Source of the DNA: Eunapius fragilis
Lineage: Eukaryota; Porifera; Demospongiae; Spongillida; Spongillidae
DNA: 64,000 bases
Reading direction: 5' to 3'
Assembly (NCBI GenBank): GCA_963681505.1
Contig: OY811971.1
Location: forward strand, 11,421,242-11,485,241
The notes beneath the pieces are model-generated. The model made no database searches. It saw nothing but the letters and a program-made list of their open reading frames with translations, and was not told the DNA's origin. Each line of letters starts with the position of its first letter. Positions within the stretch are counted from its first letter, which is position 1. Below are positions 1-23,249 of this stretch, one piece after another. The position numbers were made by a program, and so were the translations under genes.

Positions 1-650
1 TATGTCAATCATTCCTTTTATAGTACACGTGACCCGCAACCATGATGCACAAAAACAGGGCGATGGACTGGTGTGGCAGAGGCATAGGGACATCTCACTA
101 GGTCTGTCTGACACTGCTATGCACTTTTTGTGTGCTATGCCCCTCCCCTTTGAGAACCGTAGCTATGTCAATCATTCCTTTTATAGTACAGGTGACCCGC
201 AACCATGATGCACAAAAACAGGGCGATGGACTGGTGTGGCAGAGGCATAGGGACATCTCACTAGGTCTGTGTGACACTGCTATGCACTTTTTGTGTGCTA
301 TACCCTCCCCTTTGAGAACCGTAGCTATGTCAATCATTCCTTTTATAGTACATGTGACCCGCAACCATGATGCACAAAGACAGGGCGATGGACTGGTATG
401 ACAGAGGCATAGGGACATCTCACTAGGTCTGTCTGACACTGCTATGCACTTTTTGTGTGCTATGCCCCTCCCCTTTGAGAACCGTGGCTATGTCAATCAT
501 TCCTTTTATAGTACAGGTGACCCGCAACCATGATGCACAAAAACAGGGCGATGGACTGGTATGATAGAGGCATAGGGACATCTCACTAGGTCTGTCTGAA
601 ATTGTTATGCACTGTTATGCCCCTCCCCTTGAAGACTGTGACTATGTCAA
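1..650. repeat. 163-bp satellite, four copies
   Basis: Four head-to-tail copies of a ~163-bp unit start at about 1, 164, 326 and 489, each beginning TATGTCAATCATTCC; a fifth start near 643 decays at once. The copies differ by a few substitutions and small deletions, the last one most. The array runs off the left edge, so its full size is unknown. The apparent ORFs on both strands simply repeat the unit and are not genes. Confidence 0.95.
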
Positions 651-1560
651 TCATTACTTGAATTGTATTAGTACAATACATTACCTGGAGCCATTCAAAG
701 GACAGTCTAGTTTGAGAATGGGTTATTTAGAGGGGTAAGTTGCAGACAGAGAGGCAGGCTTGACCTACTAACCTTTTTGCAGACGGAGAGGCAGGCTTGA
801 CCTACTAACCTTTGACAAAGCTCCCTTTTAACACACCATTCAAGTGGCGTTCAAAGCAATTGTTCTCTCGATCACGGAAGCTGAAGTCATCGAACCATTA
901 ATAGATATATAGAATTGTTTGGGCTATATATATATACAAGTACCACCAGCATAAATGCAGTCTGTGAAAGATTTGTTTGCTATGGTATGTTGATTTCAAT
1001 TCATATCTGCGCGGTGTGTATCACCAGATGAATCTGTCAGGGGAAGAAGAAATACAACATAAACTTTGCGAGACTCATTGCTGTTATCAGAAAGAAAGGC
1101 CTCACTCCTCTCAATTCCTCCCGATGTGGCCCGAATGGATACTGGTTCTTAGTTGCTGCAGCTTTATCTAACTGTATCAAACCATCAGATAATTATGTTC
1201 TTGCTGTATTATAAATGTTGGCAGTACAACAAAGGTGGTCTGCGCACATCTCTTGGTAAGGCATCAGTACATAAGTGTCTCACAAATTTGCTACTATAGT
1301 TTCTGTATTATTATTTACTGAAGACGAGTTACAGCATCAGGACAAAGAAGTGATTGGAGTCACAGAAGAAGGTGTAGACGACGATGGTGACATGGATGAT
1401 GTGAGTGGTGGTGATGTTGCTGAGGTGCAGGAGGAATTTGTCCCGTTATATGTTGGAGATAAAAGCTTGGTCGAGCCAAGGTTTGCTGATAAATACTAAA
1501 AAAATAGCCATATAAATAATGCTCTATACTACATGTTTTGTATAATTTTGAATGGAGTAT
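651..1560. other. Spacer with a 36-bp duplication and possible upstream exons
   Basis: No confident gene. A short direct duplication (GCAGACRGAGAGGCAGGC and following bases) lies at about 743-812. An acidic ORF at about 1320-1499 (many D and E, no recognised domain) and an open frame at about 1069-1214 could be 5' exons of the downstream PHD-transposase-protease gene or of a second gene, but I cannot place splice sites with confidence. Confidence 0.4.
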
Positions 1561-1564
1561 TGGA

Positions 1565-1881
1565 ATGCAAGTTGTTACGCCGATCGCGAATCATCAACAA
1601 GCAATAAACCTCGAAGCCTTGCTTCGTGAAGACGAGAAATTTTACTGCATCTGTCAGGAACCTTTCGATGAGTCATGGTTAAACAATACCTGGTCAATTA
1701 CAAAAATTGATGTGTAATGTTTTTCATTTTAAAAGGTTCATGATAGCATGTGACTACTGTGGCAAATGGTATCATGGCGATTGTGTCGGGATATCTTTAG
1801 AAAAATCTCTATGTATCACTGCATACAAATGCTCTGCATGTACCATGGAAGGCATACCCACTCCCTTCTATACAACTGAAG
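1565..1881 (+). CDS. PHD finger (two exons)
   Basis: Exon 1565-1677 starts at an ATG and ends in the middle of a TGG codon; after a 58-bp intron, exon 1736-1881 completes it. The joined product has the full C4HC3 ligand set: CIC, then CDYC, then HGDC, then CSAC, with the W before Y-H typical of PHD fingers. PHD fingers read histone H3 tails; a chromatin-targeting role here is inferred. A further small exon (1950-1993) continues in phase. Confidence 0.85.
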
Positions 1882-4800
1882 GTTCGTTTTCATTAATGTT
1901 GCTTTGAATACATGTTACTATAGTAAAAGCATTAATTTTTAATTACTAGCTGCACAGCAAAAGGAAGATACTCAAATTACATCAATTCATGAGGTATATG
2001 CTACATGTTGTGCATGTTGCTGTTATGCTGCAATTCCGTATGAGTACTGAACATGGTACAAAGAAATAGTTGCAATGTAATGAGTATTTAAAAAATACTT
2101 TTTATTTTAAGAATATGTTATTTTAAGATTATCTTTTAATTCACCAGGTTATTAATCTGTATAACATTATTCAGTTAGAGCAATAATTACTAACACAAAG
2201 TCAAATTGTTGAACGCATAAAATAAAGTTGTTAGTATGATGCATGTAAATTCCATGCTGATATAGTCTGCTATCAGGCTAGAGCCCATAAGGCTCTAGAG
2301 CCTCACATCTATGATGCTGCACTTAGGACCCCCCGCCACCTTGGTAGCTGTAGGCTGCTGTAGGTGCCTTGGGGCTTAGCCATGGCCTGCGGCGGCCACT
2401 GGCGGGGTTTGAGTTTATGGTGTGTAACTCTGGCGGTAGAGTGTATAACATTATTCATATCAGTCAGGCCTATCAAGGCAAACTGCTATATGTCTTGGTA
2501 AAACAATGGAAATTTATGAAGGCCACAATGCTGTTATGAGGAAATCACTAGATCAGTTTGGAAAATTTGACATAAGCCAAGATGAATTCCTCTTACATTT
2601 TGGCAATGAGAAAGTTAATCCTTCATGGGTTCATTTATTTTCTAAAGGATTGGCTGAAATCAATACATACTGCAGTTTTGCGTTTAGAAAACATTGGATT
2701 TAAAAAAAATCTATCATCTAATTTCTTCTTTAAAGCTAATGCTTATTGCACATTTTCTACGTGTAATGTGCTAGCATTTCTGGACATTAAAGATGAAGGA
2801 TTGTCGAACACTAATGTAACCATAAATGTCAAGTTTGAGGGGAGCATATGCCATATCGCCAGCGAACGACATGCTCGTAGATTGAGTCTAAGTGTCAGAA
2901 AAGATACACAGACATATTTCCAACAGACGCGTATACCTCCATCTAAAGAGTATATAGGAAGGCTTATGAAGCTCACACCTGGACAATTTGCAACAGGAAA
3001 TTGCGACAATGTAGGCTGTAACCCTTCTGCATTACGAAAAATATCATCGGAAGCAAGGCTTTCATTACAAGAAGACGAAAACCTTGTATCATCTCTGCTA
3101 ATACTTAAACAAATATTTGAATTAGATGAGACAAAACTTGTCAAAGAAGAATTTAACCAAAAACCAGCTGTTTGTGGGTACATACAGTGTATTCAGGCCT
3201 CTCCATTTGCAGTTGTATGCTTCAATGATGCAGCAGTGAGGTTGTATCACGAAGTAGCAAAGAGAAACCCTATATTTTGTGATGCTACTGGCACTATAGT
3301 GTCTGTTCGTAATGAGGCTGGAAATAAACTTGTAACATACTACTACAGCCTAGTGATAAAACACCCCATCAGAGGCAAACCGCCAATTGCAGTGGCAGAA
3401 TTAATATCAACGGATCACACTGTTTTAACTGTTTGCTACTTTATTAATTGCTTTCGACAAGCAGAGGGTTTAATATTTGGATTTAATAATCTCATTAGCC
3501 CCAAACACATAGTCATTGATCGCAGTATGGTTTTGTTGCTGAGCTTTCTGCAGGCATTTAATATGGAAACATTACACGAATACCTCCAAAGAACCTTCTG
3601 TGTATGTAGTGGAGCAGGAAGTGACAAGGATATTAAAAAGATATCTCCTCATGCCTGTACTAGTCACGTGATGAATTCTGCTAAAAAGGATTGCAAAAAG
3701 TGGTGAGTTGTACTAATTTAGATGTTTTCAATAGTAAAATGCAATATTTTTCTTCTACCGTAGGTTTCAGAAAAGGCTGTATTCTTTTTCTATGTACAGC
3801 TTTTCTAGCCTTGTAAACTGTACAACTTTAAATGAGTTGGTGAAGAGATTATGTCTCTTAAAAGTATTGTATTGCTCAGAAATGGAATCAGTAGATACCA
3901 GAAAAGCATACAATTGTATTGTCAGGATTGTAAACTTACTTAATAAAGAAACATTAACCTTGCCACATGAAAACGATTACTGCAATACAGAGGAAATATT
4001 AAATGACTTATCAGATTATGATAATGACTCATTACATGTGCAACCTTTTGGGGCATATTTCCAACTTAAAGTGGCAAAAGTGAGCCTAACATCACAGGAA
4101 AAGTGTAAAAATATATACTATCAACCACATTTTTTCTTAACGATCATTGAGAAATGGATGCCAATGGCACCATTTTGGACATGCCTGATGCTGGGTAAAA
4201 TTTAACTTTCGTATATAGTGTTCATAATTTCAATTTTTTTAAATTAACAGGCGATCTGGAATGTCATAAAGCAGAAAAGGCTTTAGATGCAACATCTCTG
4301 GTAATATAATTATGGCTGTAAAGCCATACACAATTTAGTTGATGGATATTATGGTACAACAGAATGAACTGACACGAACAGCTGGAACAATTGAAGCCTG
4401 GAATTACATTCTGAAAAAGGTCGATCATTCGCAAAAGCGATTGCGACCTGATGTATTCTTAAAAGAACACTACCCTTTGATAATTGCATGACAAAGGCAA
4501 TTCTTTGACGACATGACACAGCCTATTGAAAAACGAGTAAAGGTGAGTTGTTCTGCTAGCTACGTAATGTGCTATAATTATTTTCTAATTAGAAATCTCT
4601 TCTAAGAAAGCCATCTCGGCCACTTAAAGAGAAGTGGCAAAGACGAATTATCGACACAAAAAGATCCCATGGATTTTTCCAGCAGCCTCCTAAAGAATTA
4701 ATACATTTGATTGATATTGATGAGTTTACTGGTATGACAATGCTGTATTTCAGCATTGTAGTTTATGTTTTTTGTTTGGTTGTTGTTGCCGTACTGGGAT

Positions 4801-7800
4801 TGTTCCAGCCAAAGAAGTTGCCATGGTAAGCTTTCCAAAGCATGTTACTTTTACATCACCCTGTAACCTGGCTATGTTCTCCCCATACTACTCACATCAG
4901 CAACCAGACAATGACCCTCTCCCCACATCTTTTCCCGTTCTAAATTCTAGCAGCACATTGTTTCCAAACCCATCATCACCAGCACAACCATCTCCGAAGT
5001 CACCATCATTATTACCACGATCATACCAGTTACAAACGAAAGAGAAAACAGCATTGGGAGGTATGATTGAAGTTAATAAGAAACTTAATTCAGGACTTAA
5101 AAGTAATTCCAATCTTTGCTGGCTGAATTCGGTTTTGCAATCTCTTAGTTGCACTCCATTGCTGCTGATGCTGCAAGGTAAACTACCCATATCATTCAAG
5201 TTGGAACAGCTAGTAATTTTTAAATACTATAGCACTGCCTTCAACCGGTTTGACTCCACTTCAAGCAAGCTTTGTGGACCTAATGCAAAACCTCAAGAAC
5301 ACTGAAAAACGTTATTGTATATCTACTGACTTTGCAGTAAGGGTTTTTCAGTATCTTTACAGCTACAGTTAATTATAGCTCTACTCCAATAGAAGTTGCT
5401 AACAAGGGAAGCTGTATTCCTTCAGTATGGAGCTCAAAATGATTGCTGTGAAGGAATTATGGCAATAATAGAAAAGTTACTTATGTCAACTAATGTAAAT
5501 TTTAATTTGTTATAAGCAGCACACATTGGTAACCACTTTTTTTTTACAGATGCCATACAAGTGTGAGGAGGTTTTTAGAACAAAGGTCAACAAGGTTGCA
5601 CACTGCTGTTCATTGGTAATTGCTGTTCTTAAAAGTTTTAGTATTGACTTCACACTTCTCATCTAAAATAGCCTTTGCATGAGGTTTCATCATGTACTGT
5701 AGTTTCATGTGGTGATTCATCAAAAAGAAATGTGTTTGAGTCAATTTTGGTCTATCTGGAAGCAACTGTATTATCACACATGGAAGTACAAACGTAAGTA
5801 CCTTCCCATGGCACATCTGTAAGTGATTACTGTTTCTTTCAGGAGTTGTGAAAAGTGTAATAATTCTTTAGACATTATAGAAAGTCACATGCTGCTTCCA
5901 CCAGTATTAATTATTCACTGCAATCGGGTGTCAGATGAGAATACATCTGTCAAGCTTAAAAGCCAAGTAATTGTTCCAAGGTGATTTCTTTATGATTCAA
6001 AAAGAAACACTATTTTCATATCTAAGTACACAGATGGCAACAATTATCTCATCCAAGTATCGATGGAAGCATAAGTTACGAGCTGAGTTCAATAGTCGTG
6101 AGCAGATAAATCTTGATTATCAGTAGTATTGATTTATTTATCTTCACATTAAAGATCCATCATGGAGAGAGTGCTACAAGTGGACATTGTAACTAAATCA
6201 TTTGCTTAATTCATGGTATAAATTGTGGTTCTAATACAGATACGTGTGCAGCAAGAAATCAGAACAAGTGGATATTGTATAATGAAGCTAAAGTTACTGA
6301 AATTCAAACTTCACACTACAACACAATGCCGGAAGTGGAGGTATGTAATATATATTTTGAATAGCATTGATATCATTCTTTTGCAGGAAAACATTTGCCT
6401 TGCTATATATGCATCATGCATGAAAGATGCAAGTTACTATATTACGTGGTATTTTGTTACTCAAAACGCTTCTAATCCACTTAGACCTTTATTGATAAAA
6501 TTAATTCCACTCAACCCATTTGTGTTGGCACCCAATTTGTAAGAACATATCTAGGCTTAATGCTCTGCTTAAAGGATATGCTTTCTCAACAGCCGTTTGT
6601 TGGCTTGCCAGACCACTTGGAAGCCAAGGTTTGCACGTAACCCTAAGTGCAATTATATGCATGCAATGTTTTGTTTGATACATAAAGATACAAGGAACAC
6701 ATTAAAGCCACATTCCAGATTTCAGCTTCTGGAAACAGATATATTGGCTCTGGTATCAGGAGATTGGATTGATTCTCGAGTAAGTTCTCAAGATCTGGCA
6801 ACGGTTAGCAAGGTTTCATTCTTGAATGTGCTCATTTAGGTAATTGTTGCATACATGGAACTTCTGCAAACATCCTTGTCAAGTGTAGTCTAATTATCCA
6901 AATTTCTTTGCTCTAGTTCTGAAGTAACTTTCATTGTGTTACAACCAGGTGGGGAGAACGGTGATGTGCTTTGATCCCTTACTGATTCCAATATTAAGAG
7001 CAAATGGTTTTGAAGCAGTATCAACACTTTCGAAAGTGTGTATGAAAAGCAATCATTGTTACATGCATAAATTATACAATACTACAAGGGAGTAAACATA
7101 TTGATGTATGATGTGCTACTCTTCCCTGTGCACAAGACCAAACACTGGTGTTTGATGGTTGGTTAAAATAGATTCAGATTTGTTGTCATGTATTTCATGA
7201 ACCTGACAGGTGGTCCACCCTCACCAGAAAACTGTTGATTGCTTTGACCCATTGCATGACTCAAATGATGATGCCTTCAATTGGATATGGTTAGATAATG
7301 TGATAATTTGTATAGTACATTGAAATATTTTTTCTAATTTAAGGCTGTACATTTGCACTGAGGTTTACCATAACTTGAAGCAAAGGCTATCAATCTCAGA
7401 TTGGAAATACAATGACTCAAAAGTATGCACTTCTAGTGTTACCATCATGTGATGTAATATATTTTTAGACCAATGGTTCACCAGCTCAAACAAATTCAGT
7501 AGATTGCGGTACTTTTTTATGTTTCGTAAGAAAAAATTATGTTTTATTATCTAGCAGTTTTCAGTGAATTGATTATATTATCAGGCTGCTCGACTACAGG
7601 CTGAAGGTTTGCCATGCCTGCATACGCAGGTATGTTTAATAGTCCATGCCTTTAGTGGTTACTCTTATATCATTATGCTGCTGAAAGGAAATGATGAACA
7701 CATTCAGACACCAGATGGCCTATGAGCTATCTGAAGGAATGCTATACCCATTGCAAGGCAGCTCTTCCTGTTCTGCATGGAATTATACAAAAGATACTCC

Positions 7801-8760
7801 AAACTGAGGTGCACTTAGAGCCCCAGGATAACATTGGATCATAAAGTGTACATGCATCCTTAATTTTCTAACCATGCGTTTGCAGGCTGATGATGATGGT
7901 AGTGATAGCGTTGTCATGGATGAAGAAAGAGAGTTTCGAAGTGATGGTATGGGCCATTGTAGGGTAGTACTGTCATAGTGTATGAGAAAAAAAACGTGTA
8001 ACTTCTCATTTCAGAACAAGATCATGATGTATCAGATTACTCTGATGGTGGCGGAATGCGCAAACGATTTTGCAGTAAATTTCTCATTCCTACCTATGTT
8101 AATACTCCTGATCCAGATGACATCACTGCTCTAAAATGGGGCAGAGATCATTACATCCGTTTTTATCCGACATTGAGCAGACTGCCATACACGTAAGAAG
8201 AATAAGAGTGATTATCATATTATAATTGCCAACCCTTTGAAGGGAAAAATCATGTCCTTTCACACGGGAGTTCATAAGAAGTGTAGTAAAGGACATGGAA
8301 GTAAGATAGAAAATGTTACTACAAGAATATATCATGCTTTTATAATTATAGCCTACTATCAGAAAGCTTCAGAATGGACAGCTACTTAGTGAATATCATG
8401 GGAATATTCCTATTGTTAAAACGCTTGTGAAAAATGACTCATATTGGCCTTTGCAGCACTGTCAAGATATGGTAGGTTGCATGTGTCAACTTTAACCACA
8501 AGTCAATGGGATCATTTTAGGTTGATGAAATAATTCAATACCTTATGGAAGTGGAAAGTGACTGCAAGAAAACTGCTTCAGTTTCCATGACACCCATGAA
8601 CAAACTTATTGTATGGCCAGAAGTAAGGCACGTAGTGTATACATAATACGTAAATGACATGACTCTTTCATAGATTGTTACATCACTTATCATGAAACAC
8701 TATAATGTCAGTCGCAAGGAAGCGATTGCGCACTACCTTGCACACACATTTCCAGAATGA
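1565..8760 (+). CDS. Multi-exon PHD / MULE-like transposase / USP / Ulp1 gene
   Basis: About 30 short exons read in one direction. In order: a C4HC3 PHD finger (exons 1565-1677 and 1736-1881), a DDE-like transposase (2460-4731), a USP-type deubiquitinase (4809-6400), an Ulp1-type protease (6726-7690) and a low-complexity C-terminal part ending at the TGA 8758-8760. Splice phases agree at almost every junction I traced (for example 3702/3764, 4194/4251, 4300/4363, 4542/4593, 4731/4809, 5177/5233). MULE and related transposons are known to carry Ulp1 proteases; a USP and an Ulp1 protease together with PHD and transposase is unusual. Disruptions: an in-frame TGA at 4489-4491, apparent 1-bp frameshifts near 2495 and 2660, a 268-bp insertion at 2174-2441, and a possible frame slip near 7745. 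It is therefore a decaying element, or a locus in which only the protease part is kept. The true 5' end is unknown. Confidence 0.75.
2174..2441. mobile_element. 268-bp insertion with 16-bp target duplication
   Basis: The 16-mer TGTATAACATTATTCA occurs at 2158-2173 and again at 2442-2457. The DNA between is more GC-rich than its surroundings and includes the palindrome CTAGAGCC...GGCTCTAG. Without the insert and one 16-mer, an open frame from the acceptor at 2148 continues through the site. A 16-bp duplication suits a SINE- or LINE-mobilised insertion, but no poly-A tail or tRNA-like box is clear. The family is unknown. Confidence 0.6.
2460..4731 (+). pseudogene. MULE-like DDE transposase domain, broken
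   Basis: The main exon runs to 3702 and is followed by exons 3764-4194, 4251-4300, 4363-4542 and 4593-4731. The pattern resembles MULE-type transposases: IFCDATG (first Asp, about 3280), HIVIDRS followed by LQAFN (second Asp, about 3517), HACTSH (C-x-x-H motif, about 3655), and a candidate Glu in GTIEAW (about 4395). Assignment is by motif pattern only. Damage: the frame shifts by one base near 2495 and near 2660, and TGA 4489-4491 interrupts the frame that both neighbouring exons need. Either this copy is dead or the assembly has small indels here. Confidence 0.65.
4809..6400 (+). CDS. USP-type (C19) deubiquitinase domain
   Basis: Eleven exons join in consistent phase: 4809-5177, 5233-5336, 5393-5494, 5550-5615, 5672-5793, 5843-5980, 6034-6097, 6155-6188, 6240-6340, 6387 onward. 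The Cys box reads NSNLCWLNSVLQSL with catalytic Cys at 5117-5119. The second box reads QYGAQNDCCEGIM, like the QQDAxEF box. A C-x-x-C pair (SCEKC) follows. The His box reads SGHYTCAARN, split by an intron inside the Tyr codon, with catalytic His at 6185-6187, then WILYNEAKV (the W-x-x-Y-N/D block). All catalytic residues are present and there is no stop. A proline/serine-rich linker precedes the domain. Known chemistry is removal of ubiquitin; substrate unknown. Confidence 0.88.
6574..7780 (+). CDS. Ulp1-type (C48) cysteine protease domain
   Basis: Exons 6574-6627, 6726-6779, 6840-6884, 6949-7035, 7089-7157, 7210-7289, 7344-7422, 7469-7525, 7585-7629 and 7688 onward join in phase. Features in family order: SGDWIDSR joined to VIVAYMELL (the W-L-N-D...I...Y...LL helix of Ulp1/SENP), LLFPVHKTKHW with catalytic His at 7143-7145, VDCFDPLHD for the Asp, a Gln in SPAQTNSVD, and DCGTFLC with catalytic Cys at 7505-7507, then RHQMAYEL as in the C-terminal helix. 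The triad looks intact. The frame becomes uncertain near 7745: one frame reaches a TGA just before the donor at about 7808, while the +1 frame joins smoothly to the next exon. Confidence 0.85.
7888..8760 (+). CDS. C-terminal exons of the transposase-protease gene
   Basis: Four exons follow the Ulp1 domain: an acidic one (about 7888-7947), one at about 8016-8192 containing GGGMRKRF, one at about 8353-8470, and two short ones ending at 8760 in HTFPE-stop. The last part is helical and charged with no domain I recognise. Phases join. It probably forms the C-terminus of the same protein; a separate small gene is possible. Confidence 0.6.
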
Positions 8761-9059
8761 ATATGTTCGTATTTCGTAGTTCGTATTTCGTATTACTTTT
8801 TGTGTTCACCTACTATCGTGCCATTGCAACGCAGGCATTGAGGCACAAAAAGACCCTAACGGTACGACGTGCGGCGCGCGCACAGGTTATAGCCCTCCCT
8901 CCGACAGGCACCTTGTTGCCGCACAGAAAGTCCCTAACGGTATAAGATTAGAGTGCGGCGCGCGTCAGCAAGCGCACGCGCACCTTTTGATTATAGAATA
9001 ATCGAATTACATTGGAATGTGGTGCTGAGGAATGTGGTGCTAACTTCCAAGCGGTTGAT
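8761..9059. other. Spacer with a GC-rich direct repeat
   Basis: No gene seen. CCCTAACGGTA followed by a G/C-rich stretch (GCGGCGCGCG) occurs twice, at about 8854-8880 and 8932-8967. The GC content is far above the neighbours. This could be the 3' terminal part of the transposon upstream, but I found no matching inverted copy near its 5' end. Confidence 0.4.
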
Positions 9060-10130
9060 CAAGAATTAGTAAGAATCTTATAAGAACTTTATTTCTTATA
9101 AGAAAAAGGGTAAGAAACAATAAGCGTCGTAAGATCCTAAAGCCCTATAAGATTCTAACAAGATTCCTACAAGAAACGTATAGGAACGTGTAAGAATTAC
9201 CTAAGAACAAAACAGGATCTTATAAGAAATTGACGCTGCAGGATTCCTGTAAGAGTCTTGCAATATTTCTTCTAAAAACAAAACAGGAATATTATATAAG
9301 AATAGAAGCTGCAGGATTCTTGTAAGAGTCTTGTAATATTTCTTATAAGAACAAAACAGGAATCTTATAAGAATAAACGCTGCAGGATTCTTGTAAGAGT
9401 CTTGTAATACTTCTAATAAGAACAAAACAGCAATTTTATAAGAATAGACGCTGCAGGATTCTTGTAAGAGTCTTGTAATATTTCTTATAAGAACAAAACA
9501 GGAATCTTATAAGAATAGACGCTGCAGGATTCTTGTAAGAGTCTTGCAAGATTTCTTATAAGATCAAAACTGGAATTTTATAAGAATTGACGCTGCAGGA
9601 TTCCTATAAGAGTCTTGCAATATTTCTTATAAGATCAAAACTGGAATCTTATAAGAATTGATGCTGAAGGATTCCTGTAAGAGTCTTGCAATATTTCTTC
9701 TAAAAACAAAACAGGAATGTTACATAAGAATAGAAGCTGCAGGATTCTTGTAAGAGTCTTGTAATATTTCTTACAAGAACAAAACAGGAATTTTATAAGA
9801 ATAAACGCTGCAGGATTCTTGTAAGAGTCTTGTAATACTTCTTATAAGAACAAAACAGCAATCTTATAAGAATTGACTCTGCAGGATTCTCATAAGAGTC
9901 TTGCAAGATTTCTTATAAGATCAAAACAGGAATCTTAAAAGAATAGACGCTGCAGGATTCTTGTAAGAGTATTTCTTATAAGAACAAAACAGGAATCTTA
10001 TAAGAATAGATGCTGCAGGATTCTTGTAAGTGTCTTGTAATATTTCTTATAAGAACAAAACAGGAATCTTATAAGAATAGACGCTGCAGGATTCTTGTAA
10101 GAGTCTTGTAATATTTCTTATATCATGCGG
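9060..10130. repeat. 71-bp satellite, about 13 copies
   Basis: Tandem units of ~71 bp carry AGAACAAAACAGGAAT and GCTGCAGGATTC(T/C)TGTAAGAG. The GCTGCAGGATTC mark recurs near 9234, 9309, 9380, 9451, 9522, 9593, 9663, 9735, 9808, 9879, 9950, 10013 and 10083. Most units are 70-73 bp; one near 9960 is shortened. The array ends abruptly at a GC-rich stretch (GCATGCCGCGGCCGG). A related but degenerate array lies at 12930-13380. Confidence 0.93.
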
Positions 10131-10211
10131 CATGCCGCGGCCGGCTCCCATGCACGTCACACAGGCAAACTTCCGTTCAATCACTAATATCATCGAAGTC
10201 TTCTCAAGTAG

Positions 10212-12699
10212 ATGAGTCTACGGGCCAAGAAAATTCCGTTGAAGCACTTAGACAACGCGGAGAACCCAATTCCTTCTCCAATAAGTGAGCTTTGTGTTTG
10301 TGAGTTGTTTAAGTTAAATTTTTGCCAAATTTATAGTATTCAGATTAGTATGTACTATGTGCAAGCATATGCATACTTAGGAGGAAAAAATACGTGCATG
10401 AAATTGCTATATGGGTTGGCTGACTATTGTTTGTACCAGACTCAGTTTTGCAAGTATTCAAATTAACAAATCAAAATGCTCAGGATCGTTTGCATGTAAT
10501 CACGTACATTTATTACAGTGTGGTTTATACTTGAGCCAGTTTTGCAAGTAATGTACATACATCTAACTGTATTCCCTGGCATTGCGTGTCAATTCTACGA
10601 AGCTACCTTCTCAGGGTCATATGTATTGAGGAGCAGCTGCGCTTAATTATATGAATACTATTATTGGTTACTTGTGTACTTCCTTTGACTATCAAGAGCA
10701 GCTGATACAGTACTCTCATGCTGCCGTATATATCATTCATAGCCTACATTTAGCGCGACAGTAGTATGTGTCAACGGGCAAAGGAAAATTATAGCTTATC
10801 CTGGTCCAGATCATAGAATAAGATGTTAAATGTTGTGCTTATACAATACATACTGTAAATAATATTGTTTTGTACAGAATGGTTTACTGTGAAGAGTTTA
10901 AGAACAAATAAGCTATTTGTTGTAAAATCATCACAACATGAAGATGAGGACGGAAGTTCCATCAGCTCCACTGAAAAGTGGTATGGAATTCGGAAAAAGG
11001 AGAGCGACAAGATGTTGCTATTGTAAAAATACACGGTAAATGATTAATCTAATAATGGTAAATGGGATCGAATGTTAATGTATACTTACGTATAGATGAA
11101 AAGCCTAGGAAGCCAGCCCCTCTGAAGCGAAAGGGAGGAAGAGGACAGCAGTGATAGCACATCAGATGAAGTAGAACCAAAACCAAAGGTTATAGATTAT
11201 AAAGATAATTACAGGTTCTAACTATTAATGATTTGTGTACTTAATTGTATTAATATTTTGCAGTAAAAAAAATCCAAAAAGTACACTATACCTTTGTTTT
11301 TATGCTCTTGTAATAAAATACAATCTTACTTATAGCATTGTTTGTTAATTTCCTGCAGAGAAAAAACCACCTGTCATGGGGATCACAGGACCAGGCACAA
11401 CCACACACAAAACAAAGTGTGGATGAAGCTCAAACGTATATGGTAATATAATTATAAAACAATTATATACATAGTTGTAATGATACATATGTATCAAATG
11501 TCATCAATACATGATACAGAATGCAGAAACTCAGTTGCCACAACAATCATCTACTTTTGTTAGGCCGAATGAAGATCAGTCTCAAACAGTTAGCAATGAT
11601 GTGTGTAATAATACTATTAACATTTCACCTTTTCTTTACAGTGAAACAAATCAGAACCCAATCTCCATTGATGAAGATAAAGAAAATACACCAGAACAAG
11701 GTAAATATTGCAACCAAACAGCAATTTAATCATATTTAATTTAATATCAATCTTGTTTCAAGTGACAACATAACCAAAACGGTACGTGACACTATATATA
11801 ATTTAACAAAAAATAATAATAATACAAGGTTCTTCTCCTCATTCTGCTTCCTCTTTCCTCTTCTCCCCAAAAATGAAATAATAAGGATACATGTTCTCTT
11901 GAGCCGGCCGGAGATTGTTTGTTCTACTAGGTAAATTTATGTACAAGATTAGAGGATGTATTTGAAACAGTCATTTTCAGAAATCTATCAATACCACTCT
12001 TCTGGAGCTGAAGCAGATGTGGCTATCAGCTAGTGACACAAAGGTAATGGAAATAAAAAAAAATTAATTACATTTTCTACTTTGTATGTGTAGTCTACCA
12101 TCCCTGCACATGCTCCTCGGGTAATCACTAATGCTGAGGATCTCAAGCATTTCACAACTGTAAGTGTACATAAGTTATACACATGGGTTGATTTATTTTT
12201 AACACCATACAGAAGAACGGTGTGAATCTGCTGGCCATTCCAGCCACTGAGCCTAGCAAATATGCTACGCGACTTATGCAATCATTGTTTACGGATGAGG
12301 AGATGTCAAAATTGTTGTATAAAAAAATCAGATCAATGTGAAAAGCTAAACCTTTCTCCTAAAGGAGTAGCTCTTATTGAAGGTAAGTATGTAACGAGTA
12401 CACTACAATTTAAGGGATACATTGGGACAGTAAAAGGATTTAAGATACGATGGGAAATGAAGGATAGCTTGAGGGATAAGCACAAGAAGGGGGTAATAAA
12501 AAGAATGTATATATAATTAAAAATATTTTTGTGCATCATCTTTGTGGTGTAATAAAGCTTTGTAATTTTATCATTTTTAGAGTGCATAGAAGTCAAATTT
12601 GGAAAAGAGACTATGATTTGCAAAGGAAATGACATAATAACTAGCTGCAACCAAAAATGCCTGAACATTTTAAAGAAAGTGAGAGGAAACTCAAAGTGA
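10212..12699 (+). CDS. BEN-domain gene with frame breaks
   Basis: Exon 1 (10212-10284) starts at an ATG and joins 10878-11022, giving ...PSPIKWFTVKSL and an acidic region. Exon 11520-11700 is polar and Asn/Ser-rich (NISPFLYSE). The C-terminal BEN domain is split between 12213-12382 (YATRLMQSLFTDEEM, LSPKGVALIE) and 12581-12699 (CIEVKFGKE, NQKCLNILKK, stop TGA 12697-12699). BEN domains bind DNA or chromatin proteins, so a nuclear role is likely. Defects: a run of seven A at 12323-12329 puts the BEN frame off by one (six A would keep it), and the exon near 11096-11185 reads K/P-rich in one frame and acidic in the next. It may be a pseudogene, or hold homopolymer errors. Confidence 0.65.
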
Positions 12700-13440
12700 A
12701 CTATATGTAACATTGAAAGGAACGTATTATTGGATTTGTAATTTTTGGTTAGTACATTTATATATATGAATCTCGTACAAGAAAACTTTAATGTATCTTT
12801 TAAGAATATGTGCAAATGAATCTTATAGATCATAAGGGATTCCTTTACGTATCCTGGTCCCCAATTTTCTTGCATTCCAGGAAATGAAATGTAATTAACT
12901 GACCAGGAACTTATTTCATGGATGAGCCTATAAGAATTGTTCAAGGACCGTGTTAGATTCTTTACATAAGTTCCTGTCGGATCCTACAGGATTTCTAATG
13001 AGAGTTTGATCCCAATTTCTTGCATCTTGTAAGTCCTATAGTATTTAGTAATAGGATCTTGTAAGAATCCTGTAAGAATTATACAAGTTCCTTTAAGATA
13101 CCTTCAAGATTCTTGTAAGAAACTTGTAAGTATTTTATCAGATCCTACAGGGTTCCTAATAAGATCTTGGTCCCAATTTCTTGAATCTTATAAGAATCCT
13201 GTAGGGATTAGTAATAGAATCTTGTAAGAATCCTGTAAGAATTTTACAAGTTCCTTTTTAAAAGATACTTTCAAGGTTCTTGTAAGAAACTTATAAGATT
13301 CTTATCAGATCTTATGTGATTCCTAATAAGATCTTGGTCCCATATTCTTAACTCATTATAATTCTTATAAATTCTTATAGGATTTTTTGCTAGAGCTGCT
13401 TCCGGTCATCATCGGCGGCGGCGTTGTGGGGTCCGTGGGG
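12700..13440. repeat. Degenerate satellite related to the 71-bp array
   Basis: No gene. From about 12930 to 13380 the sequence cycles through TTCTTGTAAGAA, TCCTACAGG and CTAATAAGATCTTG(G)TCCCA blocks, a diverged form of the satellite at 9060-10130. Units near 12950-13140 and 13140-13330 (about 190 bp) look like a higher-order repeat. Confidence 0.7.
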
Positions 13441-13490
13441 GCTGATGGCTACTTGCAACTCCGACAACCCGCACTTGCCACGAGGGCCAC

Positions 13491-14050
13491 ATGATGCGCT
13501 GCCTCATGATCATCTACGTTGAGGCGTTCCATGAATTCACGCTGGGTTGCGTGCACGTGCCCGGGGCCGCTAACACCGCGGCTGACACTCTGTCCCGTAA
13601 CGCTTTGACCTCCTTCTTTGTGCAGGTGCCCGAGGCCGACCCGGACCCGCTGCATATCCCCCCCGCAGCTGGTGGAGGCCCTGCTCAGCGAGGACATAGA
13701 CTGGCTAACGCCGGCCTGGAGGGAGCAGTTCGCTACTATATATTATACGCAGATCTAGCCGAGTCGACGCGTCGGACCTACGCAGCTGGCATGAGGCGTT
13801 TTTATGAACTATTCCCGCCCCCTTTCCGGTTACCGAAATCACGCTGTGCTACTTCTCCGCAACGCTGGCGAATGACAACCTCGCGTCGCAGACAATCAAA
13901 ACATACTTGGCCGCTGTCCGCGATGCGCATTTAGCTATGGGGTTCCCAGACCCTAGCTAGTCGGCTGCCATGCCCCGTCTGGCCAGGATTCAGGCGGGCA
14001 TTCGTCGCGTCTTGGCTGAACGTGGCAAGCGCTCGAGGGTTCTTGTGAAG
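13491..14050 (+). pseudogene. DIRS-type retrotransposon fragment (RNase H end plus tyrosine recombinase start)
   Basis: The frame from 13491 reads HVPGAANTAADTLSRN, typical of the end of a DIRS RNase H, then YADLAESTRRTYAAGMRRF, the start of a DIRS tyrosine recombinase. The homology moves to another frame near 13830 (LCYFSATLANDNLASQTIK) and meets a TAG before SAAMPRLARIQAG. So there is at least one frameshift and one stop, and the catalytic part of the recombinase is missing. The GC content is much higher than around it. It ends at a poly-C tract. Confidence 0.8.
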
Positions 14051-14073
14051 ATCTCCCCCCCCCCCCCCCCCCC
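14051..14073. repeat. Poly-C tract
   Basis: A run of about 22 C directly ends the DIRS fragment. Such a homopolymer is prone to length errors. Confidence 0.9.
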
Positions 14074-14400
14074 TCGCACCTATACTTTTACGGTACAGAT
14101 ATTCAATTAACATCTTATTGACACCTCAATGACAATAAATTTAAAATAAATAATGCTTCAAAATCGCACTCCTTGCCTCACGATTGGCTGTCCACACATC
14201 AAGCAGCAAGTCCAAGACGACTTTTGACCTGTACAGTCGACTGAACCTGGCTCTGGCTAGATCGATTGCCAGAGCAATAAATTCTAGATCGTTCAACTAG
14301 TTGATTTTGTAGCCTGTTTAGAAATGCATATTAGTAATGTACAATGAATAGCTAATTATTAGGTTGTATTAACCATTTGTAATTATTGTTTTAAATTTAA
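14074..14400. other. AT-rich spacer
   Basis: No ORF or repeat that I recognise. The homology with the second composite copy begins at its right edge, near TTCATAGGTTTTTTTTC. Confidence 0.5.
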
Positions 14401-14496
14401 TGCTTCATAGGTTTTTTTTCACCGTCGGTGAAATGTAGGAAGAGCATATATAATTTGGACGATCCCCTTTATCTCTTAATGCAATAACAAATAACT

Positions 14497-14961
14497 TTAA
14501 TAGTAATAATTATAATTATATGAATTAGTAGTGTTTATTGTTAATTGTCCTCGCCCGCGCCCTCGTCTCCTGCGGGGACGTCCTCCTCCCCGGCCTCCCC
14601 GCCATGCTGCATTCTGCCAGGGTGGCAGTGGCCATGCAGGCCAGGGAGGGAGCACAGGCGACGGTGGTACCGGCGGGAGCGCAGCTGGTGGTGGTGGTGG
14701 CGGGATTATCCCTGCTTGCTGTTCCGCCAGGAACACCGGCGGGGGCAGCGCTGGTGGTGCCGGCGGGGGTAGCGCTGGTGGTGCCGGCGGGGGTAGCGCT
14801 GCTGGTAGTGGTGGTGGGGGCAGTGCTGCTGGTGGTGGTAGGAGTGGCGGGGCTTCTGGAGGTGGCGGGGTGAAGGGGAGAGGAGTCGGAGGATGTATGT
14901 CATCCTCTTCCTCCTCCGACCCCTCTTGATTAAAAAAACCCGTAAGGTTTTCAGCTGACAT
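14497..14961 (-). CDS. Proline-rich low-complexity protein, copy 1
   Basis: 154 residues: a short start (MSAENLTGFFNQEGSEEEEDD), then about 85 residues of PPPALPPP repeats, an Arg/Gly block (GGRGGGRPRRRRGRGRG) and an N/Y-rich tail. No domain. An opposite-strand frame is also open, as expected of a CCG-type repeat. A second copy (17817-18203) keeps the start, acidic patch, poly-Pro, Arg-rich block and N/Y tail, which supports a real protein. The RG-rich block suggests nucleic-acid binding; this is inference. Confidence 0.55.
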   Translation of the reverse strand: MSAENLTGFFNQEGSEEEEDDIHPPTPLPFTPPPPEAPPLLPPPAALPPPPLPAALPPPAPPALPPPAPPALPPPVFLAEQQAGIIPPPPPPAALPPVPPSPVLPPWPAWPLPPWQNAAWRGGRGGGRPRRRRGRGRGQLTINTTNSYNYNYYY

Positions 14962-16209: not shown

Positions 16210-17032
16210 ACCGCGTCCTCTCGGAAGCACATTTAGCCAATCGGACAGCGGGGTCATTCCAATACCGACTCCTTTTAGATGCTTTAATGGCAGCTGAATT
16301 GTCCTCGTATTTCTGCCTGTTAGCAGCAGCGCAGTTTCCCTCGAGGTCCTCTTCATATCGCCGCCTTTTAGCAGCATGGTTCTCCTCGAGGTCCTCTTCA
16401 TATCGCCGCCTTTTAGCAGCACGGTTCTCCTCGAGGTCCTCTTCATATCGCCACCTTTTAGCAGATCGCTTAGATTCAATATCTGCGTTGTAGCTGTCGG
16501 AGAGCTAGGCCTTCTTCTTTTCGGGATCGACATTGTAGCTGTCGCATACAGAGGCCTTCTTCTTTTCGGGATCGGCCTTGTAGCTGTCGCGTACAGAGGC
16601 CTTCTTCTTTTCGGGATCGGCCTTGTAGCTGTCGCGTACAAAGGCCTTCTTCTTTTCGGGATCGGCCTTGTAGCTGTCGCGTACAGAGGCCTTCTTCTTT
16701 TCGGGATCGGCCTTGTAGCTGTCGCGTACAGAGGCCTTCTTCTTTTCGGGATCGGCCTTGTAGCTGTCGCGTACAGAGGCCTTCTTCTTTTCGGGATCGG
16801 CCTTGTAGCTGTCGCGTACAGAGGCCTTCTTCTTTTCGGGATCGGCCTTGTAGCTGTCGCGTACAGAGGCCTTCTTCTTTTCGGGATCGGCCTTGTAGCT
16901 GTCGCGTATAGAGGTCTTCTTCTTTTCGAGATCGGCCTTGTAGAGCGCTCGGGCTTTAGCTTTGTTCTCGTCTAGCTTTTGGAGGTATTCCGCTCGTTGC
17001 TTAGATCTTTTCTTTTGATTACGCGAAGGCAT
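16210..17032 (-). CDS. Lys/Glu-rich 15-residue-repeat protein, one stop codon
   Basis: Starts at ATG 17030-17032 (MPSRNQKKRSKQRAEYL). About ten copies of a 15-residue unit, DSYKADPEKKKASVR, follow; at DNA level it is a 45-bp tandem repeat (16510-16960). At 16505-16507 a TAG interrupts, but the same frame stays open beyond it through degenerate 15-residue units (RRYEEDLEENRAAK, x3) to YWNDPAVRLAKCASERTRYRRG near 16210. So the original protein was about 270 residues. Highly charged and predicted helical. I associate similar repeats with invertebrate transposon-linked proteins, but cannot name a function. Confidence 0.6.
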
Positions 17033-17040
17033 TTTTTAGA

Positions 17041-18990: not shown

Positions 18991-21900
18991 TCACTTGTGA
19001 CATCTCACTGATCTTCTGGGATTCCCTGGACCATACTCTGTGCCGGTTGGCATGCGGGGGTTTCGAGTAGATTTCTTTGGCAGACCTTGAGGTAAGGAAG
19101 GGATTGGAAGTTCTGGGGTTGCAGCCTTTGCTCCCTTTTCTGACTGTGCTGTATCCTCTGAGGGCTGGTTACCGGTTTCCAGTGTGGGTGAGGATGTTGG
19201 AGGTTCCCCAGGGTCGGTATCTTCATTTGCACCATACCTTGGCCTGAGCTGTTCGATATGACGTCGCCATGTACCCCCTTTTGGAAATACTCGAACATTC
19301 ACACTGCGGGTCCCAAACACTTTGGTGACAACAGCTGGCACCCATCTGGGGTCCTTGTCCCGTCGTGGACCACAGTACAGCGCATAGCATGAGCTTCCGA
19401 CCTTGTAAATGTGACGAACTGTTGCCTGGTTACTGATCTCCTCTGCCTGTGATTTTGTGGCTTCCCTGGCTTGCCTCCCTTGAAAGATATGTGCCGGTGA
19501 AGGGAGGAGAATGTCAATTTTGCTCCTTATTTGACGCCCATTGAGGAACTCGCTCGGGGAATATCCCACTGCCAGAGGGGTCCGACGGTACTGCATGAGA
19601 AACTCTTGAAGTGCAGTCTTAGGTGGGAGTGAGGACTTAACAAGAGCTTGTTTGAAAGTCTGCACGAGACGCTCTGCTGCTCCATTTGTGGCTGGGTGGT
19701 AGGGTGCACCTGTGAGGTGAATAATGCCCCTCTCCCGACACCATGCTTGAAACTCCTCCGAAGAGAATGATGTAGCATTGTCTGAGACGATTGTGTGCGG
19801 GTACCCAAAATGAGCAAAATCCTGTTCCAGCAAGTCTGTAGTGGCTTTGGTTGACGTTGAAGTAGTAGGATGGATACATGGGTATTTGGAATAGGCGTCC
19901 ACCAGTACCAACCAGTTGGTTCCCAGAAAATTAACTGCATGATCCACATGGATTCGGCTCCACGGCTTCTCTGGTAGCATCCAAGGGTGATTAGCAGGTT
20001 TGGCTGGTTTGGTTTGGTGTTCTGCACAGGTTTGGCACCAATGACATTGGTTTGTAATGTCTGTGTCAATCCGTGGCCAGTATACTGCTGTGCGGGCCAG
20101 TTGTTTCATTCTTTGGATTCCAAAGTGACCCAAATGAAGGAGTTCCAGGACTTGTGGCTGAAGACTGGGTGGGATGACAACTCTATTCCCATGAAGGAGA
20201 CATCCATGAACTGTAGAAAGTGACATTGCAAGCTTCCTGAACTGTTCCACCGAGTAGTCCTTTGCTTGGTCATCTGGAGTGACTTTTGCTGGCCATCCTC
20301 TGCAGTACCGCATCACACTTGAAATTACTGGGTCCTTGGCAGACTCTTTCGCCAAAACACCTGGATCAGATGGGTTTAACTGAAGACTGATGACTCTGAT
20401 AGTGCAGACCGTGTCAACGTCTGCCTCACTTTCCTCCCCATCAAAAGTGTGGTCTGGCCCCGCTGGAAGGCGACTGAGTACATCCGCATTGCCGTGGTCT
20501 GCCGTTCTTCTGTACTCGATGGAATAGTCGTATTGGCTGAGCATCAGCGCCCATCTTGCTAATCTGTTTGCAGCCAGTGCTGGAGTTGCTTTAGATGGAC
20601 CAAATAACGCTATCAGAGGCCTGTGATCGGTCACCAGGATGAAATGTCGACCATAGAGAAACTGGTGGAATTTCTTGAGGGCGAAGACGATAGCCAGGGC
20701 TTCCTTTTGAATCTGGCTATATCGACACTGAGTGTCTGTAAGAGTCTTAGAAATGTTGGCGATTGGACGTTCACTATCATCTGCATAGCGGTGGAATAAA
20801 ACTGCTCCAAGACCAACTTCTGAAGCATCACAGGATACCCCGACAGGGAGTGACGGGTCAAAGTGGGCAAGAACTGTATCAGCACAGAGCATGTCCTTCA
20901 GCTTCTGGAATGTTGCCTGTTCTTCCGCACCCCATTTCCATTGGATTTCCTTCTTGGTTAACCGGTAGAGTGGTTCCGTGGTGGTGGCCAGATTGGGTAG
21001 GAACTTATTGTAGAACTGGACAGATCCAAGAAAAGAGCGTAGAGTTGGGACATCTGTAGGAGGTGGCATCCTCACAATTGCGTCAACTTTGTGTCCCTTT
21101 GCAATACCTTGGTTAGAGATCATGAATCCCAGGTACTCAACAGATGGTTGTGCAAAAGAACATTTCTCTAAGCGACACCTCAGCCCTTTTTCTTGCAGTC
21201 GTGAAAACAGTGCCCGAAGGTTTTGGAGATGGTCTGAAGCGGAGGCACCACTGACAAGAAGGTCATCCAGGTAGACAATGACACCCTGAAGGTCTGCTGT
21301 CAGTTTGTCCATGACTTCCTGAAAATACCCTGGAGCTAAGCTGATGCCAAAAGGAAATCGACATTGCAGCAACACACCTCTATGAGTGCTGAGAGCTAGT
21401 CGTTTCTGACTTTCTGGGCCCAACTTGATTTGGTTATACGCGTCTGCCAGATCCACCTTTGAAAATCCGTAGCCACCAGACAGCTTCCGCATTAAATCCT
21501 CAGGAAGAGGCATAGGATAGCGGTGAGTCTCCAGTTGTGAATTGACAGTAACTGAGTAGTCTCCACACACTCGTATCTTTGCTGGCTGACCCGGGGCACT
21601 TTTCTTCCGAATTGGAACAACTGGTGTACCATAGTCATTGAACTGAACGGGCTTCCACACTCCTTTAGCAATTCCTGCATCATAAGCTTGGTTCAGGTCG
21701 TCCTGAATTGCGAATGGAACTGGACGTGGCTTACGGAAGATTGGTGCAGCATCTTCCTTGAATTTCACTTCCAGTTCGAAACCTTCCAAACACCCTAGTT
21801 CTTGTTTGAAGAGATCCGGAATTTCTTCGCAGAGTCCTTTACATGCCATTTGAAGAGCTACATCTGGCTTGAGGTTGTCGAAGATAGGTTTGACCACTTT

Positions 21901-23223
21901 GTGGTCATCTTGCCTGTCCTTCGAAGGGACTCGTACAAGTAGAAGGGCTTGAACGTTGATACCAAGCTTGACAATGGCATCCCGGCCTAACAAGTTCAAT
22001 CGTGGAGAATTGGTGACAGTGAAAGTGAGAGTGATGTTCTTTGAATCTTCTCCCTGCAGTGAGGTGACAGCTTCAAAGGTACCCAGGGTGTGCAGAGGCT
22101 GGCCGTTGGCCACTTCATAGCGACATGTGGGCGGCTTGAGGGACGGTTTCCCAAGTTTCCCCCAGAAGTCTTGAGAGCAGAAATTGTCTGCTGCACCAGT
22201 ATCCACTTCAAAGATGAAGTCCTGGCCCTGGATCCAAACCTGCTGTTCAAGTTGCGGAACTGAACTGATACTATTCACTGTCTTGAACTCCCGTCTGGTG
22301 ATGATCTTCACTGGTTGAGTACCCTTTCTCTTCTGGAGACATGCACTCTCAATATGCCCCAGTTTCTGACAGAAGTGACAGGTGCTGGTCTTGAACGGAC
22401 AGTCCTTTGATGCATGTTCTGTCTTGCCACACCTGGGACAGGTTCCCTTTGGAAAATCTCTTTTCCTGTGACTACCAAACTTGGAACTCCGGTTTGGATT
22501 GGCTGGATAAGGCTTCTTAGTAGCTTGGATATTATGAACAGCTGTCTGCTTAGCCCCATATACCGTCTCCTTTGCAACCCTGGCAGCGTCTTCAGTCTCT
22601 ACTGCGGTTGAAATAGCCTTGGCAAAAGTGAGCTCACTGTCCTTCACTTTGAAGAGAGCTTTGAGAACTGCTTCGTTATTGACCGAGCACATGAAACGCG
22701 TGCGCATGGCTTCATCAAGAGGGTCTGTGATTGAAGGAAAATCGCACGTCACAGCGTCTTGGCGAATTCTCGCGGCGAGTTCATGAATCGTCTCCCCGGG
22801 CTTACGCTGCATCTCGGACCAGAATTTGAAGCGTTCTCTGACTATGTACCTTGAAGGATCGAATTGGCTCTTCATGAAGTCTGTGATTTCGTCGATTGTG
22901 AGGTCGTTGATGCCTTTTGATGGCGACTGTTGCGAAGCGAGGTTACACAGCAACTTGTAGGTTACCTTAGATTGGCTCGTAAGGAAAACCTGCGCGGTTT
23001 TGTCTTCCGGTACCGAGTTTGCCCCAATGAACGTATGGAACCGTGCCAGATAGTCCGTCCATAGCTCCGATGTCGAGTCGAATGGTGGGAAGGTAGGGAA
23101 GGAAGTTGCGGGCATGGGCTTACTCAGTCCTTTAGCGATTGCTGCGACGAGCGCTTCTGTTTGTTCTCGCTGTGAGTCCATCTGCCGCTGGAAGAGCTTG
23201 ATAAGTTCGCTTAGTTCTGCCAT
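18991..23223 (-). CDS. Gag-Pol polyprotein, Mag-like Gypsy
   Basis: 1410 residues, no internal stop. Gag about 1-300 with two CCHC knuckles (CPRCGKTEHASKDC about 262-275, CHFCQKLGHIESAC about 282-295). Protease motif FEVDTGAAD about 338-346. Reverse transcriptase about 500-700 with the active site YLDDLL at 651-656. RNase H CDASEVGLGA about 798. Integrase with an HHCC zinc domain (about 1030-1066), and catalytic D about 1094, D about 1148 (SDNA) and E about 1184 (AAERL), with 35 residues between the last two. Gag and pol share one frame, as in many Mag-lineage elements. The start ATG lies just 3' of the primer-binding site. Proteins act in cytoplasmic particles and the integrase in the nucleus. 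Confidence 0.97.
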   Translation of the reverse strand: MAELSELIKLFQRQMDSQREQTEALVAAIAKGLSKPMPATSFPTFPPFDSTSELWTDYLARFHTFIGANSVPEDKTAQVFLTSQSKVTYKLLCNLASQQSPSKGINDLTIDEITDFMKSQFDPSRYIVRERFKFWSEMQRKPGETIHELAARIRQDAVTCDFPSITDPLDEAMRTRFMCSVNNEAVLKALFKVKDSELTFAKAISTAVETEDAARVAKETVYGAKQTAVHNIQATKKPYPANPNRSSKFGSHRKRDFPKGTCPRCGKTEHASKDCPFKTSTCHFCQKLGHIESACLQKRKGTQPVKIITRREFKTVNSISSVPQLEQQVWIQGQDFIFEVDTGAADNFCSQDFWGKLGKPSLKPPTCRYEVANGQPLHTLGTFEAVTSLQGEDSKNITLTFTVTNSPRLNLLGRDAIVKLGINVQALLLVRVPSKDRQDDHKVVKPIFDNLKPDVALQMACKGLCEEIPDLFKQELGCLEGFELEVKFKEDAAPIFRKPRPVPFAIQDDLNQAYDAGIAKGVWKPVQFNDYGTPVVPIRKKSAPGQPAKIRVCGDYSVTVNSQLETHRYPMPLPEDLMRKLSGGYGFSKVDLADAYNQIKLGPESQKRLALSTHRGVLLQCRFPFGISLAPGYFQEVMDKLTADLQGVIVYLDDLLVSGASASDHLQNLRALFSRLQEKGLRCRLEKCSFAQPSVEYLGFMISNQGIAKGHKVDAIVRMPPPTDVPTLRSFLGSVQFYNKFLPNLATTTEPLYRLTKKEIQWKWGAEEQATFQKLKDMLCADTVLAHFDPSLPVGVSCDASEVGLGAVLFHRYADDSERPIANISKTLTDTQCRYSQIQKEALAIVFALKKFHQFLYGRHFILVTDHRPLIALFGPSKATPALAANRLARWALMLSQYDYSIEYRRTADHGNADVLSRLPAGPDHTFDGEESEADVDTVCTIRVISLQLNPSDPGVLAKESAKDPVISSVMRYCRGWPAKVTPDDQAKDYSVEQFRKLAMSLSTVHGCLLHGNRVVIPPSLQPQVLELLHLGHFGIQRMKQLARTAVYWPRIDTDITNQCHWCQTCAEHQTKPAKPANHPWMLPEKPWSRIHVDHAVNFLGTNWLVLVDAYSKYPCIHPTTSTSTKATTDLLEQDFAHFGYPHTIVSDNATSFSSEEFQAWCRERGIIHLTGAPYHPATNGAAERLVQTFKQALVKSSLPPKTALQEFLMQYRRTPLAVGYSPSEFLNGRQIRSKIDILLPSPAHIFQGRQAREATKSQAEEISNQATVRHIYKVGSSCYALYCGPRRDKDPRWVPAVVTKVFGTRSVNVRVFPKGGTWRRHIEQLRPRYGANEDTDPGEPPTSSPTLETGNQPSEDTAQSEKGAKAATPELPIPSLPQGLPKKSTRNPRMPTGTEYGPGNPRRSVRCHK

Positions 23224-23230
23224 GATAGTT

Positions 23231-23249
23231 GATCCTGCCGACTACGCCA
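23231..23249 (-). promoter_or_regulatory. Primer-binding site, tRNA-Ser
   Basis: On the + strand GATCCTGCCGACTACGCCA equals the 3' end of a eukaryotic tRNA-Ser (AGA type) including CCA, apart from the first bases. It lies 8 bp inside the 5' LTR, where reverse transcription would be primed. tRNA-Ser priming is known in the Mag lineage. Confidence 0.85.

Follow-up and report, generated by a model that had tools for sequence, protein, structure and literature searches.

A candidate intron-dense gene of the sponge Eunapius fragilis combining a PHD finger, a middle domain that may be a transposase, and USP and SENP1-like proteases

Ubiquitin and SUMO protease domains recur in unrelated transposons, and what is said of their role in the reports cited here has the form of proposals so far. 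Some Ginger1 transposases carry Ulp1, and Ginger1-9_HM from Hydra also carries a PHD finger; each Ginger1 element is described with OTU or Ulp1, never with both, and with 0-4 introns (PMC2836005). The same report cites Mutator elements with Ulp1 in Hydra, lancelet, and plants, and a Trichomonas vaginalis protein, XP_001314237.1, composed of transposase_11 and Peptidase C19. A Helitron with two deubiquitinase types, VTD and OTU, has been described (PMC9741609). Rehavkus has a PHD finger in its transposase and a minisatellite on the 5' side of the 3' terminal inverted repeat (TIR) (PMC6446971). Here, we describe a locus in a stretch of 64,000 nucleotides (nt) from the sponge Eunapius fragilis (contig OY811971.1, positions 11,421,242 to 11,485,241 of the forward strand), hereafter called the window. 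At positions 1565-8760 of the window, a PHD finger, a long middle domain, a protease of the C19 (USP) family, and a protease of the C48 (Ulp1/SENP) family follow one another.

Ginger1 is similar to this locus in that a DDE-type transposase gene contains Ulp1 (C48), accompanied in Ginger1-9_HM by a PHD finger. However, its description gives a Gypsy-integrase-type core, extra domains at the C-terminus, and few introns, and lists no C19. The Mutator elements have Ulp1 in common with the locus. They differ from it in that its middle domain showed no match to a MULE profile, that TIRs were not found in the regions searched, and that C19 is additional. Compared by its description, XP_001314237.1 shows the fusion of C19 to a transposase, but the transposase is of another family by its label, and neither C48 nor PHD is mentioned. 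Helitrons resemble the locus in having two deconjugating protease classes per transposon protein; they differ in being rolling-circle elements, and the two classes are VTD and OTU, not USP and Ulp1. Among the systems compared, Rehavkus is the nearest structural parallel, as far as its description goes. The likeness consists of the PHD finger and of the minisatellite downstream of the open reading frame (ORF), here with a 71-bp unit. The 3' TIR of Rehavkus has no counterpart in the regions searched here, and C19 is again extra.

Among the titles, abstract openings, and passages that came up in full-text literature searches, which covered few subscription papers and no Repbase reports, no description of C19 and C48 in one transposase-like protein was found. 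A first-pass annotation of this DNA had regarded a ubiquitin-type and a SUMO/NEDD8-type protease in one transposon-derived gene as new, Ulp1 in transposons being known. Ulp1 with PHD, C19, and VTD with OTU have already been published in transposons. Because of these published cases, the idea is less isolated than the annotation held, and the pairing of C19 with C48 would add to the known protease-bearing transposon proteins.

A Pfam search of the translated exons located the PHD, C19, and C48 domains in this order, 5' to 3', all on the + strand and all above the Pfam cut-offs, as the first-pass annotation had proposed. The E values were 5.2e-8 for PHD (PF00628; 33.2 bits against a cut-off of 24; profile 1-47 of 47), 8.9e-28 for UCH/C19 (PF00443; 98 bits against 23.9; profile 2-241 of 254), and 4e-22 for Peptidase_C48 (PF02902; 79.6 bits against 20.7; profile 1-211 of 217). 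The MULE transposase domain (PF10551), which had been proposed together with these three, was not matched, and the four remaining segments sent to Pfam gave no family at E values up to 10. In PDB searches, the closest solved relatives were the PHD of BPTF (E 2.1e-15) for the PHD finger and USP21 (E 2.3e-9) for C19. The C48 domain was nearest to SENP1 (E 1.1e-23) and SENP2 (3.4e-23), ahead of SENP3 (1e-11) and SENP5 (3.3e-11). These values narrow the "SUMO/NEDD8-type" protease of the first-pass annotation to the SENP1/SENP2-like SUMO type. To our knowledge, USP21, SENP1, and BPTF, the closest sequence relatives of the three domains taken singly, are separate host proteins that are never combined with each other.

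All seven protease active-site codons that were searched for were found: Cys, His, and Asn of C19, and His, Asp, Gln, and Cys of C48 (Table 1). The C48 residues were aligned to SENP1. The C19 regions were aligned to USP21, the Cys region weakly. Judging from these alignments, the USP and SENP1-like domains carry the residues of active enzymes. At the places of the alignment that correspond to the methyl-lysine cage with which BPTF binds H3K4me3, the residues of the PHD finger are Y, F, M, and W. Because these residues are present, the PHD finger seems likely to read H3K4me3. A search of viral contigs, which tells little about animals, gave five pattern stretches and no relatives for C19 plus C48 (542 aa).

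The most unusual point, and one that is supported, is that C19, C48, and a long domain that is not a protease are read in a single frame. Except for one TGA, this frame stays open from the middle domain to C48, with C19 in between. This was observed with a blind splice path, which takes no account of homology; its criteria are stop codons, a minimal donor score at GT sites, some pyrimidine at AG sites, and an intron length of 38-100 nt. The path scored 1143 over 2450-7700, while 60 dinucleotide shuffles gave a mean of 303 (standard deviation 105, maximum 655) and the reverse strand gave 472. The gap over the shuffles was kept with stricter intron costs (967 against a maximum of 430, and 803 against a maximum of 209). 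Fourteen of the 24 hand-placed exons between e4b and e27 were reproduced exactly. From 2577 on, the path contained 10 of the 11 test peptides of the middle, C19, and C48 domains in a single frame with one stop; the C19 peptide WILYNEAKV is missing because the path takes exon e17 in a different frame. The domain searches and the blind path together support the placing of C19 and C48 in one frame; the first-pass annotation had put the two proteases in one gene, with exon phases that agree.

The gene model itself, for a single copy of the locus, was placed by hand and translated exon by exon (e1-e28 plus the C-terminal exons). Exons e1-e28 are joined by GT-AG introns, most of which are 46-90 nt long, with exceptions of 34, 38, and 470 nt. 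Introns as short and dense as these would be in keeping with a sponge. There are 28 junctions to exon e28, including the doubtful one of 34 nt, and 29 exon pieces to C48. Since the splice sites were picked by the analyst, these GT-AG joins are weak evidence when taken alone. For each join between domains, stop-free GT-AG paths were sought in each phase at a series of donor-score thresholds. Between the middle domain and C19, the observed phase alone was open at a donor score of at least 2; a second phase opened at a score of at least 1, and no path was left at a score of at least 3. Between C19 and C48, the observed phase alone was open at a score of at least 3.

Table 1. Features of the locus and of its flanks (positions in the window)
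Feature	Positions	Strand	Details
163-bp tandem repeat	1-613		3.8 copies; upstream of gene; begins at window edge
PHD finger	1565-1993	+	exons 1565-1677, 1736-1881, 1950-1993; Pfam and PDB matches, exon phases
Candidate intron with probable nested insertion	1994-2463	+	16-bp direct repeat copies start at 2158 and 2442
Candidate exon e4a	2464-2613	+	join to next exon is a 34-nt intron (2614-2647) or a frameshift
Middle domain	2648-4542	+	exons 2648-3702, 3764-4194, 4251-4300, 4339-4542; frame support, no family match
In-frame TGA	4489-4491	+	after E motif of middle domain, before linker
Linker, middle domain to C19	4593-5060	+	exon 4593-4731 plus the 5' portion of exon 4809-5177
C19 USP domain	5061-6538	+	exons e9-e18; Cys 5117, His 6185, Asn 6281
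C48 Ulp1/SENP-type region	6593-7740	+	exons e19-e28 (first part); His 7143, Asp 7246, Gln 7487, Cys 7505
C-terminal stretch	7741-8760	+	part of exon 7688-7808, then exons 7886-7946, 8015-8192, 8363-8471, 8521-8622, 8674-8760
71-bp minisatellite	9202-10122		13 copies; downstream of gene

The reading that we prefer, with about an even chance of being correct, is one intron-dense gene, which probably belongs to, or derives from, a DNA transposon whose DDE-like family is unclassified, and in which PHD, a likely transposase (or its remnant), USP, and a SENP1-like protease are combined. Several observations weigh against it, and the first of them concern the middle domain. The order D, D, CxxH, E resembles that of MULE and hAT transposases, and a codon check placed these residues in the middle domain at D 3281, D 3518, C 3656, H 3665 (CxxH), and E 4393. 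However, the middle domain (552 aa) matched no Pfam family and no NCBIfam family at E values up to 10. Its 180-aa core likewise gave no Pfam family at E values up to 10, and in PDB there were four chance-level rows, the best with E 0.25. An integrase family, as in the core of the Ginger1 type, was not among the Pfam matches at E values up to 10. Comparison by hhalign with a profile of bacterial MULE matches (28 proteins; two of 30 loci, without a central ORF over 150 aa, were dropped) was no better than that of 20 shuffled queries or of a USP control, in what is a weak test with a single sequence, run without a positive control. Since neither libraries nor profiles give a match, the word transposase comes from motifs seen by eye. 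The MULE transposase of the first-pass annotation is unsupported, and the domain is not filed as MULE here; that it works like a DDE transposase seems about as probable as that it does not.

Relatives of the middle domain were sought in bacterial and viral collections, where absence says little about animals. The 351-aa middle exon gave 19 pattern stretches and no relatives in viral contigs. In genome contigs it gave 45 pattern stretches and one candidate relative, which was rejected as chance: 37 query residues were aligned in an 805-aa bacterial ORF, and the seed was one octapeptide in common. The 98-aa core gave 17 pattern stretches and no relatives in viral contigs, and the 180-aa core gave nothing in 21 bacterial genomes or in phages. 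A single-sequence AlphaFold2 model of the main exon of the middle domain had a predicted local distance difference test (pLDDT) score of 34.4 and was not used.

The surroundings of the locus count in the same direction. Comparison of 1-1600 with 8701-14500 gave no TIR above chance (best pair 22 nt, E 0.09), and the inverted repeats in 1-14000 are all within minisatellites. TIRs might still lie further upstream, since the window begins only 1.56 kb on the 5' side of the gene. Neither a target-site duplication nor a second copy of the gene was found in the 64-kb window. The origin from a transposon, as first annotated, is therefore unproven. It should be mentioned that a published table of MULE groups gives target-site duplications of 8-11 bp and includes some groups without TIR (PMC6446971). 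The 28 junctions of the hand model are also far from the 0-4 introns listed for Ginger1 (PMC2836005), and such a high intron number would also suit an old host gene.

This leads to the first alternative: a domesticated host gene, derived from an old transposase, which gained the proteases and serves or served as a chromatin deubiquitinase and deSUMOylase, and which is now a pseudogene or misassembled at three places. In addition to the intron density and the lack of terminal repeats and of a second copy in the window, the retained active-site residues of the proteases agree with this explanation. On the other hand, a TGA and two frame changes would be unusual for a conserved host gene, and many ORFs nearby look by eye like those of mobile elements. 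We regard a host gene as possible but doubtful.

Other points against one transposon-derived gene concern the joins. A first blind run, which covered 1500-8800, gave scores of 1391 for the region and 602 for its reverse strand. The controls of that run were 14 stretches, from seven segments of the window on both strands. Twelve of them scored 533-1107, above the shuffle level. The other two reached 1915 and 2021; both are minus strands of segments with long mobile-element-like ORFs. In the join test, C19-to-C48 was open in all three phases at donor scores of at least 1 or at least 2, and PHD-to-middle was open in all three at a donor score of at least 1 with introns up to 480 nt. The phase test is thus informative mainly for middle-to-C19. 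The agreement of exon phases put forward in the first-pass annotation is real evidence at this join, modest evidence for C19-to-C48, and none for PHD-to-middle.

Two or more adjacent genes (PHD, a middle-domain gene ending near 4829, C19, and C48), arranged head to tail either by chance or because they form a cluster, would agree with these open phases. Without use of the introns, stops can also close the parts (ORFs 4593-4829 and 6222-6542). However, the blind path places middle, C19, and C48 in one frame, and middle-to-C19 is phase-specific at a donor score of at least 2. Furthermore, there is little space for separate promoters: of the unspliced frames, one runs to 4829 and so into the next exon (from 4809), and the other stops at 6542, which is 177 nt short of exon e20. 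Adjacent genes are considered unlikely.

PHD-to-middle is the least certain of the domain joins, and the PHD finger is only presumed to be on the same transcript as the other domains. The 470-nt intron between them contains a probable nested insertion of about 270 bp (2158-2457) flanked by 16-bp direct repeats. After candidate exon e4a, the frame changes at about 2614-2647, which requires a 34-nt intron or a frameshift; the codon-usage scores mildly favour this segment as coding, and hence a frameshift rather than an intron. Little weight was given to these scores, since the gene itself had served for training. When the three forward frames were compared, the chosen one came out best for e3, e4a, e6, e7, the two parts of e9, e18, and e19, and also for e8, though with a negative score; for e1 and e2 it did not. 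For e4a, e8, and the two parts of e9, a frame on the reverse strand scored higher than the chosen frame. An acidic, coding-like stretch with a codon score of 15.1, which might be an earlier exon of the same gene, is located at 1334-1490 (+), upstream of the PHD exon. The linker between the middle domain and C19 is rich in P and S within 4809-5060.

The C-terminal stretch is the least certain part of the gene model. A second frame change is located inside exon 7688-7808: the end of C48 is in one frame, and the stretch to 8760 is in another. This stretch is partly acidic, terminates at TGA 8758-8760, and matched no known domain. By codon usage, the chosen frame was best for two of its exons, e29 and e32, but failed to be so for e30, e31, and e33, and the top-scoring frame of e28 has two stops. 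Because of the in-frame TGA and the two frame changes, the copy is probably decaying, or is partly in error in the model or assembly, and it may be unable to make the full protein any longer. A dead mosaic, in which insertions or rearrangements in a repeat-rich region joined unrelated pseudogene pieces, would account for the TGA, the frame changes, the probable nested insertion with its 16-bp repeats, and the adjoining tandem repeats, but it seems very improbable, as both proteases keep their active-site residues and the frame score over 5 kb is far above the shuffles.

If the locus is one gene from or of a transposon, a mechanism may be proposed, in which transposase activity, transposon origin, substrates, and effect are what we infer. 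The PHD finger (BPTF/PHF2 type, H3K4me3 readers), possibly with the middle domain, would anchor the protein on chromatin. The USP and SENP1-like proteases would then act on host proteins of silencing or DNA repair near the element and free them of ubiquitin and SUMO. Loss of these modifiers might make expression or transposition of the element easier; the counter-silencing function suggested in this way is again one that we infer. SUMO acts in PIWI-interacting RNA (piRNA)-guided silencing and in repression of R1/R2 in flies, which makes relief of silencing a sensible guess (PMC7676866). However, in the same work, the expression of R1/R2 went up when the SUMO isopeptidase Ulp1 was knocked down in flies, so that a SUMO protease is not a simple reliever of repression, and this counts against the mechanism. 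Other roles have been proposed for transposon proteases: they may activate DNA repair factors, either in the course of transposition or afterwards (PMC2836005), or shield transposition proteins from degradation (PMC9741609).

A bolder version supposes a transposon lineage in which one protein recognizes active chromatin by its PHD finger and counters silencing by taking off two modifiers, ubiquitin and SUMO, with the flanking tandem arrays as possible cis targets. The last part is by analogy with the VANC proteins, which target tandem-repeat noncoding regions of VANDAL elements (PMC10398659). We give this version little credence. A protein that keeps both kinds of protease beside a histone reader would offer a natural experiment in compact form, in which the effect of each activity on silencing, repair, or transposase stability could be tested separately. 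Such a protein would also suggest that animal mobile elements captured USP-class enzymes, besides OTU, VTD, and Ulp1.

Downstream of the locus, at 10880-12720 (+), several exons form a candidate gene whose match to the BEN domain is weak (E 0.012; 16.2 bits against a cut-off of 23.2 bits). The query spans one in-frame stop, and the gene may be decayed or mis-modelled. It is flanked by minisatellite arrays at 9061-10134 and 12980-13369 with common CTTATAAGA/CTTGTAAGA-type motifs. The exact copies of CTTATAAGA and CTTGTAAGA in the window, 19 and 12, respectively, are all inside 8900-13500. The 71-bp array and the array at 12980-13369 have only the CTTRTAAGA-type motif in common. A 45-bp tandem repeat at 16505-17035 (-) codes for a repeated KADPEKKKASVRDSY-type peptide. 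Gypsy-, hAT-, and Tc1-like ORFs were recognized by eye at 18991-23241, 37684-42214, 43619-45786, and 59846-60358, all on the minus strand.

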